Shown: in pieces, positions 4,759-55,765 of the stretch | How the letters are laid out: each line of letters begins with the position of its first letter | Numbering within the stretch: the stretch's first letter is position 1 | Assembly (NCBI RefSeq): GCF_000024345.1 | Contig: NC_013729.1 | Span: forward strand, 6,572,001-6,636,000 | DNA length: 64,000 nt | Direction of reading: 5' to 3' | Source of the DNA: Kribbella flavida DSM 17836 | Lineage (GTDB): Bacteria > Actinomycetota > Actinomycetes > Propionibacteriales > Kribbellaceae | Notes under the pieces: generated by a model | The model's input: the letters and a program-made list of their open reading frames with translations, nothing else | Told to the model about the DNA's origin: nothing | The model's database searches: none | Made by a program: the position numbers and the translations under genes

Positions 4759-6138
4759 TCAGGCAAGGAAACGGACCTCGACGACCAGGCCGTCCTGGAC
4801 GCGGTACAGCACGATCGTCGGCACCGGCCCCTGGTCGGAGTCGTGCCGGATCGACTGCTCCACCACCCAGTCGCCGAGCGTCATCCGCTGCTGCAGCTCG
4901 GTCTTGCACCGGCCGGCCTCGAACTGCGGCCGGTAGTGCTCGCGCAGCGACCGGCGGCCCCGCAGTACCGCGCCGTCGGCCAGCTGCAGCTGAGCGGTCG
5001 GCGAGTAGAGCGCGAGGAAGGCCTCCAGGTCGTGCGCCGCGTACATCGCGTGCTCGCGGTCGACCACTCGCGACGCGGGGGTCTCGGCGGCGAACGCGGC
5101 GGCGACGGCGGCCGTCAGGTCCGCCACCGCGGCCGGCAGCGGCGCCGGCTCCGCGGGTGCAGTGGAGTCGGCGGCAGCCGGCGTTGCTGTTACGGCTTCC
5201 GTCGGCTGATCGGCAGGTGCCGACATGGTGGAAGCCGGCTCGGCGCGCTTCGCCGGCGAGCCGGCGGACGTCGCCGGACGGGCCGGGGTGGAAGTCGAAG
5301 GAGTGGAGGTAGAGGGTCGGGGAGGCAGGGTGCTGGTGGCGGTCGCGGCAGAGGCGGCCGGGAGAGGAAGCTGGCCGGCGGGTTCCTCACCCAGGTGCGC
5401 GATGGCCCAGTCCAGCGCCTTGGTCACCGCGGCGCGGGATTCTTCGGTGTGGTCGAGCATGTCGAAGCCGTGTTGCCCTTTCGGAACGTCGATGATGTCC
5501 AGTGCGGCGCCGCCGGCGGAGACGAACTCCGCCACCGGACCGGCGAGCTCGGCGCGCTCGCGGCCGACCCTCGTCAGCAGCACCGGCAGGTCTGTAGGTG
5601 AAACCTTTCCCATCCCACCGGCCCGGTCGTGTCTGCCGATCACTTCGGCAGCGTTGACCAGCTCGTCGACACCGGGCGGGGTGGCGAGTTGGGGATAGGT
5701 CAGCAGCAGGCAGCGCAGCCAGTCCGGCCGGCTGTCCAGCCACTCCCCCGCGAGCAGGCCGGCCCCGGAGAAGAACCAGAGCGCGACGCGCCCCGGATCC
5801 ACCCGCGGATCGGCCCGCAGTACACCGACGGCGGCCTCCACGTCGTCGGCTGCGGTGGACAGCTGGTCGAAGCCACGGATCAACCCGTGGTCCACGACCG
5901 CGGCCACCAGACCGCGCTGGGCGGCGACGGTCGCGTACCCGGTGAAGACCGGCCAGTCCCGAGGACTCACCTCGAGGCCGTCCGGGCCCGGACCCCCGTG
6001 CACGAAGAGGATCGCGCCCGTCCTGGCGGTGCCGGCCGGGTGGTACAGGTCGACGTGGCCGACCCTTTCCACCCGCACCTGTCCGGCGTCCTCGACCGGT
6101 AGCACGAACGGTCGCAGGGAGGGCGGGAGATCCGTCAT
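4759..6138 (-). CDS. Alpha/beta hydrolase fused to a SnoaL-like domain
   Basis: A 459-residue two-domain protein. Residues about 1-255 form an alpha/beta hydrolase of the dienelactone hydrolase/esterase type: FVHGGPGPDG oxyanion-region motif, ALWFFSGAGLL (nucleophile-elbow position, here FSGAG) and GQHGFD with the late His. A linker of about 90 residues rich in Pro, Ser, Thr and Ala follows. The last 120 residues (VDREHAMYAAHDLEAFLALYSPTAQLQ onward) are a SnoaL/NTF2-like fold ending in VVEVRFLA. ATG at 6138 opens the hydrolase domain. The combination is unusual; the SnoaL part could be a separate catalytic or binding unit. Its stop lies just upstream of the MDMPI gene start. Confidence 0.82.
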   Translation of the reverse strand: MTDLPPSLRPFVLPVEDAGQVRVERVGHVDLYHPAGTARTGAILFVHGGPGPDGLEVSPRDWPVFTGYATVAAQRGLVAAVVDHGLIRGFDQLSTAADDVEAAVGVLRADPRVDPGRVALWFFSGAGLLAGEWLDSRPDWLRCLLLTYPQLATPPGVDELVNAAEVIGRHDRAGGMGKVSPTDLPVLLTRVGRERAELAGPVAEFVSAGGAALDIIDVPKGQHGFDMLDHTEESRAAVTKALDWAIAHLGEEPAGQLPLPAASAATATSTLPPRPSTSTPSTSTPARPATSAGSPAKRAEPASTMSAPADQPTEAVTATPAAADSTAPAEPAPLPAAVADLTAAVAAAFAAETPASRVVDREHAMYAAHDLEAFLALYSPTAQLQLADGAVLRGRRSLREHYRPQFEAGRCKTELQQRMTLGDWVVEQSIRHDSDQGPVPTIVLYRVQDGLVVEVRFLA

Positions 6139-6242
6139 GGAGCAATCTTGGCCTATCCCGGGGACACTTGCAGCCGCCACCCCGCGCCACGTCCCGAGAC
6201 TGTCCGTCACAACGCACATTCCCTACCCACCAAGCGTTTGAA

Positions 6243-6293: not shown

Positions 6294-6368
6294 GGGGATA
6301 ACCCGCCAAATGCTGGGTTCTCCCACCGCATACGGACGGGTAGACCCAGCATTTGGCGGGTTATCCCC
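6294..6368. repeat. Large palindromic element 1 (25-bp perfect arms)
   Basis: The left arm 6294-6318 and right arm 6344-6368 are exact reverse complements (25 of 25). They enclose a 25-base interior that is itself partly self-complementary. The arm starts GGGGATAACCC and contains CCCGCCAAATGCTGGG. No T-run follows on either strand, so it is not an ordinary intrinsic terminator. Its core resembles the element at 53933-54019. Confidence 0.8.
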
Positions 6369-6398: not shown

Positions 6399-6938
6399 TT
6401 AGGCGGGGGCTTTGGTGTACGACAGGGAGACGACGCCGTTGGGCCGGTGGCTGACCTCGGCCAGGTCCAGCCGGCTGGAGATGCCCGATCGGAACACCGG
6501 AGTACCGCTGCCGGCGACGACCGGGTGCAGCCAGAAGTTGAGCTCGTCGACCAGGTCGTGCTCGAGCAGGGTCTGCGCGAGCCGGCCGAAGCCGTAGATC
6601 ACCAGGTCCCCGTCGCCCTGCGTCTTCAACTCCGCCACGCTCTTCACCGGATCGGCCGCGACGACGGTCGCGTTGCTCCAGTCGGTGCCGGCCAGCGTCG
6701 AGGAGAACACGTACTTCGCGATCGCGTTGACCCGTTCGGCGTACGGGCCGGGGGTGTTCGGCCAGGCGGGGGCGAAGTACTCGTAGGTGTGGCGGCCCAT
6801 CAGCATCGCGTCCGCGCGCCGAAGCTCCGCCAACGACTCGGCCGCCGCCTCGTCGTCGAAGTACGAGCCGACCCAGGAGCGCGGCTCCCCGTGGATCCCG
6901 TCGACCGAGAGCAGAGCACCGACCTTGAGCTTGCGCAT
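6399..6938 (-). CDS. Dihydrofolate reductase family protein (RibD C-terminal type)
   Basis: A 179-residue protein of the DHFR/RibD-C fold (MRKLKVGALLSVDGI at the start, then MGRHTYEYF and GDLVIYGFGRLAQTLLEHDLVDELNFWLHPVVAGSGTPVF). Family members reduce NADPH-dependent pterin- or deaminoflavin-like substrates, but most single-domain actinobacterial versions have no assigned substrate. ATG at 6938 follows a good GGAGG site; the longer in-frame extension has none. It stands alone, with palindromic element 1 downstream of its stop. Confidence 0.9.
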   Translation of the reverse strand: MRKLKVGALLSVDGIHGEPRSWVGSYFDDEAAAESLAELRRADAMLMGRHTYEYFAPAWPNTPGPYAERVNAIAKYVFSSTLAGTDWSNATVVAADPVKSVAELKTQGDGDLVIYGFGRLAQTLLEHDLVDELNFWLHPVVAGSGTPVFRSGISSRLDLAEVSHRPNGVVSLSYTKAPA

Positions 6939-7095
6939 GCGTTCCTCCAGAGAACCGGGTTTACCCGAACAGACCCCGGCCACCGGCAGAAGGAATCGGT
7001 CACCCGCTCTTCAACCTCGACCGTGGGCAGGTACGAAGTGGCCAGTTCCTGCCAGCGGTGCGCGATGGTCCGGCCGAGCGGCCAGACTGCACACA

Positions 7096-30023: not shown

Positions 30024-30087
30024 GGGTCTCCTTCCGCCCTGTCTTCCGACAGAGTTGGACTTGTCTGCCACACCGCCGACCCACACA

Positions 30088-52254: not shown

Positions 52255-53583
52255 ATGCCAGAGCCCAACGAGTTGCTCCGCGCCGCCCGGGAGCGGACCC
52301 CGTCAGTACGCGCCCCGGGTGAGCACATGTCCCGCAGCGAGCTCGCCGAGCGGGTGTGCGCGTGGTTGTGGGAGACCACCCACGTCAAGTACGACCTGGA
52401 CGGCCACTACCTCGCCAAGCTGGAACGCGGTGCCGTGCGGTGGCCGGGGCCGGCGTACCGATCCGGTCTGCGGCACGTACTGAACGTTGCCACCGACATC
52501 GAACTCGGTTTCAGCCCGAGCAACGAGCCGGCCCAGTTCGACCTCGAGCCGGCGCCGCCGCCCGCGGTCGGGCTGGACGACGACCTGATCGACGCCGGCG
52601 ACGAGTCGGTGTCGCTGCTGATGCTGGCCGAGGAGTCGAACGTCGGCGAGCTCACCGTCGAGCAGCTGCACGCCGACATCCACCGGATCGCGCAGAGCTA
52701 CCTGAAGGTGCCGACCCGGCCGTTGTTCCTGCGCAGCAAGGCGATCCGCGACCGCGCGTTCAAGCTGCTGGCCGGCCGGCAGCCACCGAAGCAGACCCGC
52801 GAGCTGTACGCCGTCGCCGGGTGGTCGCTCACCACGCTGGCCTGGATGTCGGTGGACCTCGGCCGACCCGACGTTGCCGAGAGCCACACCCGGACGGCGT
52901 GGGCCTGCGCCGACGCCGCCGACCACGACGAGCTGCGAGCATGGGTCCGGGCGACCCAGCACACCGCGGCGTTCTGGCAGGACGACTTCGTCGGCGCGGC
53001 GGAGTTCGCGCGCGACGGGTTGCGGTACGCAGAGGGTTCGTCGGTGCTGTTCCTGTCGGGGGTCCTGGTGGTCGACCTGGCCCGCTCCGGCCGCACGACC
53101 GAGGCCCGCGACGCGCTGTCGACGGCGAAGAACCGCACGGGCTCGCCGTGGACGCCGGAGATCGGCGGTCCGTTCCTCTGCACACCGGAACGCACGCAGG
53201 GGATCTGGTCCGACGCCCATCTCGCTCTCGGCCAGCCGGAGCTCACGCTGGAGCTCGCCGAGCAGAGCCTCCAGCAGTTCGCCAAGACACCGCATGCCCA
53301 GCGCAACTACGGCTCCGAGCGCATGGTCCAGCTGCAGCTCGCCAAGGCGCACCTCGAACTGGGCCAGCTCGACGGCGCCACCGCCGCCGTCGAGCCGGTC
53401 CTCGCCGTGCCCGCGGAGTACCGCGTCCGTCCGCTGCTGCACCGCATCACCGAGGTCGCCGCCCAGGTCCGCAGCGGCCCCTACGGCAGCACCCCGGAAG
53501 CCAAACACCTCTACGACGCCATCCGCGACTACGTCCGGCGCCCCACCCCCCGCCGCCGGCGCAAACCCGCCACCACGCACTGA
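52255..53583 (+). CDS. XRE-type regulator with tetratricopeptide-like domain
   Basis: 442 residues. Residues about 1-75 are a helix-turn-helix of the actinobacterial XRE type (NELLRAARERTPS, then SRSELAERVCAWLWETT and YLAKLERGAVRWPGPAYR). The remaining 360 residues are helical repeats of TPR type (AAFWQDDFVGAAEFARDGLRYA, ARSGRTTEARDALSTA, AKAHLELGQLDGATAAVEPVL), ending in a basic tail. Such proteins often bind peptides or partner proteins and control development or secondary metabolism in Streptomyces. It is preceded by phased repeats that could be its own binding site. Confidence 0.85.
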   Translation: MPEPNELLRAARERTPSVRAPGEHMSRSELAERVCAWLWETTHVKYDLDGHYLAKLERGAVRWPGPAYRSGLRHVLNVATDIELGFSPSNEPAQFDLEPAPPPAVGLDDDLIDAGDESVSLLMLAEESNVGELTVEQLHADIHRIAQSYLKVPTRPLFLRSKAIRDRAFKLLAGRQPPKQTRELYAVAGWSLTTLAWMSVDLGRPDVAESHTRTAWACADAADHDELRAWVRATQHTAAFWQDDFVGAAEFARDGLRYAEGSSVLFLSGVLVVDLARSGRTTEARDALSTAKNRTGSPWTPEIGGPFLCTPERTQGIWSDAHLALGQPELTLELAEQSLQQFAKTPHAQRNYGSERMVQLQLAKAHLELGQLDGATAAVEPVLAVPAEYRVRPLLHRITEVAAQVRSGPYGSTPEAKHLYDAIRDYVRRPTPRRRRKPATTH

Positions 53584-53932
53584 CGCAGCCGGCCCGAGGT
53601 CGATCCCTTCCCCAGGAATCCCCGGCCAGGCACCGAACCACCCCTTCGCAAGTCCAGCTGATCCTTCGGCTCGCCGTCCCAAGCGGCCGATGCGCGCCGT
53701 CGCCCTCGCTCGTAGCGTCCGCGAACAGCCATCGGCTTTCGCCGGCTGCGCCGCCGTTCAGCACCCTCGGATTTCCGCGGCGCTCCACCACTCTGCAGGC
53801 GAGGGCTTGATGACCGCAGGCCGTGGCAACGCACCCGGGGGCGAGCCGCTGCCACCGGCCCTTTGCCCATCCGCGGCGATGCGCCAGCACGGCTGCCGAA
53901 CCGCTGAGAACGTACGAACCAGCACACCCGTG
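53584..53932. other. Intergenic region without recognisable genes
   Basis: About 350 bases between the XRE-TPR stop and the large palindrome. Open frames here are extensions of shadows in several frames; none has a start site or recognisable product. I see nothing else. Confidence 0.5.
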
Positions 53933-54019
53933 CTCTGAGGGGTTAACCCATCAGAGCCATGGTTGGCCCACCAAATTCTGATGGGCCAACCGTTCACCTG
54001 GTGGGTTAACCCCTCAGAG
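53933..54019. repeat. Large nested palindromic element 2
   Basis: The outer arms 53933-53950 and 54002-54019 match perfectly (18 of 18, CTCTGAGGGGTTAACCCA). Inside is a second stem, 53961-53970 with 53982-53991 (GGTTGGCCCA). Its core CCCACCAAATTCTGATGGG resembles CCCGCCAAATGCTGGG of the element at 6294-6368. It lies between convergent genes and lacks a T-run on either side. Confidence 0.8.
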
Positions 54020-54090
54020 TGGCCGCAGGCGCCTGGGGGAAGAGCGGCAGCGGCAGCCGGCCGCGGCAAGGGGGCTGTTGCTGCGGGCAA

Positions 54091-55683
54091 TCAGTTGCTG
54101 ACTTCGGCGACGCCGGGGCGGCCGGACTCGACGGTGACTGAGGCGCGGGTGATCACGGGGCCGCCGGGGGTGGTGACGTTGGGGACCACCCGGTAGTCGG
54201 TGCGCCAGTGGGTGGGGGTGACGACGCAGCGCTGGTAGCCGCGCTGGCTGTTGTGGAAGCGCATGTGCGGGTTCTCCGCGAGCCAGGTGTGGCCGAGGGC
54301 GTCGGTGTCGGTTCCGTTGCCGCCGGAGCTGATCGACGTGCCGAGGAACTCGGTGCCGACGGTGCGGGACGACGGGTCGGCGAAGTTCAGTTTCAGGTCG
54401 GCGGCGACACTGCGGTGGGCGTCGCCGGTGATCATCACGAAGTTGTCGACGCGCCGTTCGACCACCCCGTCGAACAACCGCTGCCGGGCGGCGGCGTAGC
54501 CGTCCCAGGTGTCCATGCCGAACCGTTCCGACGGGCCCGCGTCGTGGTCGGCCTCGAAGGCGAAGATCTGGTTGCCGAGCGCGTTCCACCGGGCGTCCGA
54601 GCGGCCGAGTCCGTCCAGCAGCCAGCGTTCCTGCTCGGCGCCGAGCATCGTGCGGGCCGGGTCGAACCGGTCGTCGCAGCCCCGCACACACTCCAGCTGG
54701 TCGGTCCGGAACCGCCGGGTGTCCAGCACGTTCAGCTGCAGCAGGTTGCCGAAGGTCAGACGCCGGAACACCTGCATCTCCGGCCCGCGCGGCATCGACG
54801 TACGGCGCAGCGGCAGGTTCTCGTAGTACGCCTGGTACGCCGCCGCCCGCCGCTGCCGGAACACGGCGGGATCCTGGTCGGGCTCGTTGTCGAGCTGCGA
54901 GATGTCGCCGGCCCAGTTGTTCTCCACGTCGTGGTCGTCCGGGGCCACCACCCAGGGCGCGGCGGCGTGAGCGGCCTGCAGGTCCGGGTCCGACTTGTAC
55001 TGCCCGTAGCGCACCCGGTAGTCGGCCAGGCTGAACGTCTCCGCGACCGGCAGGTGCCCGCGCCCGATCGTGCCCTGCGAATTGCCTTCGTAGATGTAGT
55101 CGCCGAGGTGCACGACCAGGTCCAGGTCGTCCTGCGCCATGTGCCGGTACGCCGTGAAGAACCCCTCGTGGTACGCCTGGCAGCTGGCGAACGCGAAGGT
55201 CAGCTCGTTGAGCCGCCGGTACGCCGCGGGCGCCGTCCGGGTCCGCCCGACCGGGCTGAGCTGGTGACCGACCGCGAACCGGTACCAGTACTCGCGGTCC
55301 GGCCGCAGCCCACGGACCTCCGCGTGCACCGAGTGCCCCCACGCCGGTACGGCGTGCTCGACGCCGCGGCGGACCACCTTGCCGAACCGCGGGTCCTCCG
55401 CGACCTCCCAGCGAACCGCGACCCGCTTGTCCGGCATGCCACCCTTGCCGTCGGCCGCGAGCGGCTCGGGCGCGAGCCGGGTCCAGAGCACCACCCCGTC
55501 CGGGTGCGGGTCGCCCGAGGCGACGCCGAGCGTGAACACGTCACCGAGCGGGCGGCTCGCCTCGGCCGGCACCTCCGTACCGAGCGTGCCGACCGCACCG
55601 ACGACCGTCGCGGCGCCGGCCAGACCGAGAAAGTGCCGGCGCCCGAGCGCGCCGGAAACCTGAGGCGTGGAGACCTTAGGCAT
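54091..55683 (-). CDS. Alkaline phosphatase D (PhoD) family protein
   Basis: 530 residues. Tat signal GRRHFLGLAGAATVVGAVG at about 12-30, then the PhoD N-terminal domain (FTLGVASGDPHPDGVVLWTRLAPEPL in pieces) and the metallophosphatase core: LTFAFASCQAYHEGFF, VVHLGDYIYEG, PDDHDVENNWAGD and MITGDAHRS, with the expected Asp, Cys, Asn and His metal ligands for Fe/Ca. It is an exported phosphodiesterase/monoesterase for scavenging phosphate. ATG at 55683 follows TTGGAGG. PHO-box-type sites upstream were not evident in the 80-base gap to murB. Confidence 0.93.
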   Translation of the reverse strand: MPKVSTPQVSGALGRRHFLGLAGAATVVGAVGTLGTEVPAEASRPLGDVFTLGVASGDPHPDGVVLWTRLAPEPLAADGKGGMPDKRVAVRWEVAEDPRFGKVVRRGVEHAVPAWGHSVHAEVRGLRPDREYWYRFAVGHQLSPVGRTRTAPAAYRRLNELTFAFASCQAYHEGFFTAYRHMAQDDLDLVVHLGDYIYEGNSQGTIGRGHLPVAETFSLADYRVRYGQYKSDPDLQAAHAAAPWVVAPDDHDVENNWAGDISQLDNEPDQDPAVFRQRRAAAYQAYYENLPLRRTSMPRGPEMQVFRRLTFGNLLQLNVLDTRRFRTDQLECVRGCDDRFDPARTMLGAEQERWLLDGLGRSDARWNALGNQIFAFEADHDAGPSERFGMDTWDGYAAARQRLFDGVVERRVDNFVMITGDAHRSVAADLKLNFADPSSRTVGTEFLGTSISSGGNGTDTDALGHTWLAENPHMRFHNSQRGYQRCVVTPTHWRTDYRVVPNVTTPGGPVITRASVTVESGRPGVAEVSN

Positions 55684-55765
55684 GAAACCTCCAAGAAGAC
55701 GGCGGAAGCCGTCATTCATTCACATCCGGCCGTCCGAGGACAGAAGCGGAAGCGAACAGAAGGTG

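Follow-up and report, generated by a model that had tools for sequence, protein, structure and literature searches.

A dispersed family of ~87-bp palindromic repeats at gene ends in Kribbella

What are the two long palindromes that stand in non-coding DNA of one segment of the Kribbella flavida chromosome? The segment, here called the window, is 64,000 nucleotides long and corresponds to positions 6572001-6636000 of the 7,579,488-bp chromosome (genome G000). Its two longest inverted repeats lie at 53933-54019 and 6294-6368, and we term them the A and B elements. An earlier note, made from the sequence alone, had taken them for related, highly symmetrical members of a dispersed family, whether small mobile palindromes, transposase-dependent repeats or binding sites for a chromosome-organising protein. 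The elements, their parts and the neighbouring genes are given below with the basis of each assignment in brackets; elements and boxes carry no strand.

53933-54019: family A element, a long imperfect palindrome (stems, fold, 48 family A rows in fetched loci of the genome)
53940-53949: A box 1, GGGTTAACCC (four-box pattern match 53940-54012)
53960-53969: A box 2, TGGTTGGCCC (four-box match; alignment A1)
53970-53982: A central 13 bp, ACCAAATTCTGAT (stem analysis; alignment A1)
53983-53992: A box 3, GGGCCAACCG (four-box match; alignment A1)
54003-54012: A box 4, GGGTTAACCC (four-box match)
52255-53583, + strand: gene left of the A element, TPR match only, PF13428 (3′ end toward the A element)
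54091-55719, - strand: PhoD-like phosphatase gene right of the A element, PF09423 (3′ end toward the A element)
6294-6368: family B element, a long palindrome and second window copy (stem, fold, 31 family B rows, ~3 of them shifted placements)
6295-6304: B box 1, GGGATAACCC (exact four-box match 6295-6367)
6315-6324: B box 2, GGGTTCTCCC (four-box match)
6338-6347: B box 3, GGGTAGACCC (four-box match)
6358-6367: B box 4, GGGTTATCCC (four-box match)
6399-6983, - strand: RibD_C-domain gene (3′ end 31 bp from the B element)
4759-6219, - strand: gene downstream of the B element, SnoaL_2 match (gene call and Pfam)

Inverted-repeat and fold analysis bears out the stems described earlier for the A element, an outer one that is perfect over 18 bp (CTCTGAGGGGTTAACCCA / TGGGTTAACCCCTCAGAG) and an inner one of 10 bp (GGTTGGCCCA / TGGGCCAACC), with a folding energy of -69.5 kcal/mol (z -8.8) that none of 200 shuffled sequences equalled. 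The B element has a perfect 25-bp stem and folds at -74.8 kcal/mol (z -12.5). The two are indeed related, and it is their layout that they share: four GGG-N4-CCC boxes with spacers of 10, 13 and 10 bp (10/13/10) form a 73-bp core within the hairpin. In the window this layout is matched at B and A only (0 and 2 mismatches; shuffles 0.00). The earlier note had placed the likeness in a common inner core, and we rejected this as the homologous part of the two elements because it occupies a different position in each. CCCACCAAATTCTGATGGG is the hairpin centre of A, between boxes 2 and 3, and CCCGCCAAATGCTGGG is the outer spacer of B, between boxes 1 and 2. The resemblance of the inner cores is a coincidence, and the boxes are the common part. 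Neither element matches Rfam at the gathering score, and A gave microRNA-hairpin matches only, all sub-threshold. Elsewhere in the window, positions 30028-30054 on the - strand match the L31-Firmicutes ribosomal protein leader above the gathering score, in an actinobacterium.

The proposal of a dispersed family is strongly supported, with copies of both types found genome-wide and further copies in relatives, contrary to the outcome that the earlier note had named as refuting it, a lack of other copies. The genome-wide search that had been suggested returned 68 copies of the four-box layout in K. flavida at up to two mismatches, and 0 for a reversed-pattern control. BLAST with the A element and then with the B element gave two families, and the 10/13/10 layout is found in both although neither query used it. 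Family A has boxes GGGTTAACCC / GGTTGGCCC / GGGCCAACC / GGGTTAACCC (48 rows in the fetched loci), and family B has GGGATAACCC / GGGTTCTCCC / GGGTGGACCC / GGGTTATCCC (31 rows, ~3 shifted). Alignments A1 and A2 hold 44 of the 48 A rows and 22 of the 31 B rows, the remainder being tandem repeats and shifted or divergent hits, and their consensus sequences span ~87-91 bp. Spacing is exactly 10/13/10 in 65 of 132 fuzzy regular-expression rows, a list that includes shifted and chance placements. Copies within the genome mostly share 75-85% identity over ~85 bp, spacers included. In an unselected 400 kb there are 13 palindromes with 36-bp arms; eight have the layout, two lie between tandem copies and three are unrelated. 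The 66 sites tested for a bias in chromosome position leave a largest empty arc of 716 kb (P 0.10). At 1363149-1363284, as at some other loci, the layout is extended by whole units, here to a seven-box array. Higher-order arrays in which neighbours have an outer box in common, with a 63-bp period, are seen at L034:3150-3285, L046:3390-3588 and L153:6554-6752, and L064:9911-10368 (chromosome ~7195300-7195750) has three copies within a longer repeat.

The family is Kribbella-specific. Of 38 Kribbella genomes, 29 have the layout at up to two mismatches, with 340 copies summed by hand (control 1) and from 0 to 68 per genome; the exact layout occurs in 10 of the 38 and in none of 353 other genomes of the order. 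The pattern fixes GGG/CCC and 10/13/10 and so overlooks variants, the 10/12/10 copies of genome G034 among them; low counts may therefore understate, and a few of the low-count matches listed (e.g. G027) are unlike the family. A broad contig scan gave 28 stretches, 11 of them on contigs of Kribbella or 'Streptomyces sp. SID13031'. The other 17 were rejected as members, 14 being 21-bp tandem GC palindromes in MAGs and three low-complexity or unconvincing. The A element had no match among plasmids and phages, and viral contigs gave 0 exact matches to a narrower pattern that, with TT/AA fixed in the inner boxes, would miss variants. The tandem short GGGG..CCCC palindromes with a ~21-bp period (two helical turns) in MAGs of Spirochaetaceae, Treponema, Oscillospiraceae, Bacteroidetes and Verrucomicrobiaceae (L228:6072-6240, L230, L237, L238, L241, L242, L246) are unrelated to the Kribbella family. 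In draft Kribbella assemblies (G015, G022, G036; L279) many elements lie no more than a few hundred bases from a contig end, for example C54:8 and C300:37 of G022 and C317:24 and C506:27 of G015, and the hairpin may perhaps break sequencing or assembly.

Copies lie mostly at gene 3′ ends, as emerged when their orientation relative to genes was checked as the earlier note had proposed. By the calls of a home-made codon-score script, the 71 places in K. flavida comprise 39 convergent, 28 tandem and 3 divergent gaps and 1 inside a called gene, against 18/84/46 convergent/tandem/divergent for background gaps of at least 90 bp in the unselected 400 kb. Convergent gaps are enriched (odds ratio 9.1, p 4e-11) and divergent gaps depleted (odds ratio 0.10, p 3e-6) by Fisher tests that leave out the 1 of 71 places inside a called gene. 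In tandem gaps 19 of 28 copies are closer to the 3′ end of the upstream gene (hand count), and relatives give 24/16/1 (also by hand, excluding G000 and any row that was shifted or at an edge). The flanks of the copies are C-rich on the left and G-rich on the right, beyond what is seen in 16 element-free convergent gaps. The T-runs that the earlier note had found missing are indeed missing, with 0 of 158 strand-wise tails carrying 5 T in 8 after the stem, and a terminator scan of 53500-54500 around the A element found none. A stem lacking a T-run is not a canonical intrinsic terminator.

From this placement, taken with the pairing of the arms and the replacement of copies by ordinary hairpins described below, we infer a function at transcript ends. 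It is on balance probable that the elements form a family of ~87-bp intergenic palindromic repeats with a REP/BIME-like distribution, lying outside the RAYT-mobilised REPs and serving as a two-way transcript-end hairpin. On transcription from either side, the element would fold as an RNA hairpin of 30-45 bp, and this hairpin would end, stabilise or punctuate the transcripts of the flanking genes. If it acts on transcripts in this way, the element would be tolerated or kept only at 3′ ends. Spread and overwriting might depend on a trans-acting route by which the hairpin is recognised and its dimensions are fixed, and loss of elements by deletion would be frequent. Mean fold energies are -61.6 kcal/mol for 44 A copies and -56.4 kcal/mol for 22 B copies, compared with about -30 for shuffles. 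An alternative fold into two local hairpins (box 1 with box 2, box 3 with box 4) was rejected: it reaches about -26 kcal/mol, the long hairpin about -60.

Several observations count against this account. The stem has no T-run after it, neither a mobilising gene nor a target duplication was found, a hairpin alone leaves the near-fixed 10/13/10 unexplained, and arm covariation in K. flavida is weak. The near-fixed dimensions suggest that a protein measures the element, or else that copies have descended with no indels; given the 10/12/10 variant in G034 they are not absolute. We give some tentative credence to a bolder possibility, that ruler-like machinery recognising the 10/13/10 four-box hairpin mobilises this lineage-specific family independently of Y1, that copies replace each other (A giving way to B or to variants particular to a species) as well as ordinary terminators at the same gene ends, and that a mobile element has in this way taken over transcript punctuation genus-wide.

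The regular spacing also invites the reading that the elements are four-dyad binding-site arrays for a chromosome-organising or regulatory protein, with the hairpin a by-product of symmetric sites. We think this unlikely, and keep the earlier note's protein-site proposal as a rival only. Such an array would have centres spaced 20/23/20 bp, 63 bp in total or six helical turns. In its favour, GGG-N4-CCC recurs in all four boxes with hardly any variation in spacing, some loci are lengthened by whole units to seven boxes for example, and within a genome the arms are closer to the column consensus than to each other. Arm pairing in K. flavida exceeds shuffles weakly (80.7% against 79.4% for A, 75.1% against 73.5% for B), and we take this small excess to mean that the copies drift around a symmetric consensus. 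Mutual information along the hairpin axis within K. flavida has a mean z of 1.2 (A) and 0.8 (B) and the local dyads lie around zero, with mean z between -0.21 and 0.28 for those of A. Between species, however, covariation follows the hairpin axis. Forty cores, picked by hand from the listed matches of the layout in 15 genomes (1-6 per genome), were compared with shuffles that leave relatedness in. The variable N4 of boxes 1 and 4 are paired along the hairpin at 71% versus 51% (z 7.4), those of boxes 2 and 3 at 90% versus 75% (z 7.7) and the spacers at 62% versus 44% (z 9.3). Eight between-species tests for covariation inside single boxes found none. The bases thus differ between species while arm pairing is maintained by compensatory change, and the inner boxes vary by lineage jointly with their partners (GGGTTGGCCC/GGGCCAACCC, GGGTTGCCCC/GGGGCAACCC, GGGTTCACCC/GGGTGAACCC, GGGTTCCCCC/GGGGGAACCC). 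The variation of box sequence between species and the avoidance of promoters also argue against protein-site arrays.

The hairpins might instead be ordinary two-way terminators that evolved in place and came to look alike through selection for strong GC hairpins at convergent ends. The strong 3′-end bias fits this, as do the unrelated perfect hairpins that other species have at the same sites. At the site of L071, compared across the genus with loci from 30 of 38 genomes (as for L274) and G001 unjudgeable, elements were seen in G000, G006, G033, G010 and G034 among the 29 judged loci; G035, G017 and G004 have unrelated perfect stems of 17-19 bp, that of G004 flagged by pairing alone and, with a box score of 14/24, counted as an ordinary stem. 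At the L274 site (30 loci) G009, G007, G010 and G034 have elements, and several other genomes have perfect stems measuring 11-19 bp. The other loci at both sites have neither element nor perfect stem. One and the same site can bear A, B, a different variant or a hairpin of unrelated sequence. Unrelated long perfect stems (12-19 bp) also recur at one gene end in several species at L305, L318, L342, L354 and others, and such stems suggest that terminator-like hairpins in general may be exchanged fast.

Evolution in place is nevertheless improbable as an account of the family itself, to much the same degree as the protein-site arrays. Its copies are alike over ~85 bp including the spacers, the layout is limited to the genus, 8 of the 13 palindromes with 36-bp arms fit it and only 3 are unrelated, and copies are present or absent at ~95% identity. 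This last comparison is of G009 with G021 (~95% identical; matched pieces 91-98% for 12 query pieces), in which 14 of 15 fetched G009 loci were compared and 13 judged, L276 lacking a right flank. The strain check that had been suggested finds 5 of 13 assessable sites in common and 8 not, which may reflect insertion or deletion; one of the eight (L280/L287) is a deletion remnant, and the cleanest presence/absence pair (L274/L292) has 100 bp against 1 bp, with no duplication. Over a syntenic 400 kb of ~84% identity, G000 has 10 layout copies and G033 has 1, of type A, at a place where G000 has three tandem B copies. A second site (L152/L071) likewise differs in type, with A for G033 and B for G000. 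The counterpart in G033 of the B copy that G000 has at 6748051 is an ordinary stem of 11 bp, and opposite the A copy of G000 at 6497055 the aligned flanks in G033 enclose a ~75-bp gap lacking an element. Judged from these alignments, turnover of the family is fast. An orthology comparison at PhoD was uninformative, as all six loci read lacked both the element and a shared intergenic region.

How copies move bears on two further explanations. The first, that the element is a MITE belonging to a conventional DD(E/D) transposon and is mobilised by a transposase whose terminal repeats match, would account for the terminal inverted repeats and the dispersal, and we consider it quite unlikely. No target-site duplication rose above expectation for k of 2-8 and offsets of 0-24 in the 48 A and 31 B rows, the best excess being 4 observed against 0.35 expected among thousands of combinations, with no consistent offset. 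No split or long partner with the element's ends appeared among the BLAST matches of A and B, and the L274/L292 pair, again, shows no duplication. Of 132 called neighbour genes 128 were scanned (one taken as a longer ORF than called), and the 25 families listed of 180 are ordinary and varied and include no transposase. The idea of a small mobile palindrome is plausible in view of presence/absence in close relatives and lineage-specific sequence families, though no target duplication was found. MITEs such as Correia/NEMIS are short, non-coding and have inverted-repeat ends. The Kribbella element resembles them in these features and differs in that no target-site duplication was detected and no partner transposon was seen among the BLAST matches.

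A true REP family, once mobilised by a RAYT (Y1) transposase that most species have since lost, is very improbable: the 3′-end distribution is that of GTAG/CGTC REPs as described in the available part of PMC3733652, but PF01797 has no match in K. flavida at E 1 (10 of 14 control genomes do have one) and, of the 38 Kribbella genomes, is present in G032 alone, which has only 3 layout copies, the element is ~87 bp against 20-40 bp, and neither the A nor the B consensus has a GTAG/CGTC tag. RAYT/Y1 mobilisation in K. flavida was accordingly rejected, and the earlier suggestions of transposase-dependent (REP) repeats and an adjacent REP-type transposase are not supported, none being found here and PF01797 missing from 37 of 38 Kribbella genomes.

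The available part of PMC3733652 places REPs mainly between convergent and unidirectional genes, and the preference for convergent and tandem over divergent gaps holds here (39/28/3, plus one inside a called gene). Like the REP/BIME described there (GTAG, CGTC), the Kribbella elements are dispersed intergenic palindromes at convergent and tandem ends, occur as singletons and clusters, and differ in abundance between relatives. They are unlike them in size, in having no such tag, in the four-box layout and in the lack of RAYT/Y1. As the tag, size and RAYT all fail, we call the family REP-like and not a REP. ERIC sequences are long single imperfect palindromes of ~127 bp in transcribed intergenic regions, and we know of no transposase and no four-box layout for them; both they and the Kribbella element are long single imperfect palindromes of the order of 100 bp, unrelated in sequence and host group. 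With bidirectional intrinsic terminators the element has in common a strong hairpin between convergent genes, and it differs in having no T-run on either side and in forming a repeated sequence family and not independent hairpins. We found no prior description of a Kribbella repeat family in the literature, and the K. flavida genome paper (PMC3035274), in its available part, mentions CRISPR as the only repeats.

Such repeat families are best known with RAYT or MITE machinery, and this one has no visible mobiliser. It is genus-wide and turns over fast; its layout has been measured, its structure covaries, and replacement at the same site is seen. With pairs of close species that are unlike at known positions, it offers a tractable case for learning how repeats move, and whether they work as transcript ends where bacterial terminators have no T-runs.

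At one locus a 377-aa ORF (L038:3005-4138) lies between two A elements ~1.2 kb apart (463481 and 464737). Its product may be AbiEi/VSR-like from its appearance, but it has no match in Pfam. G033 carries a matching pair of elements, at L151:6037 and 7215.
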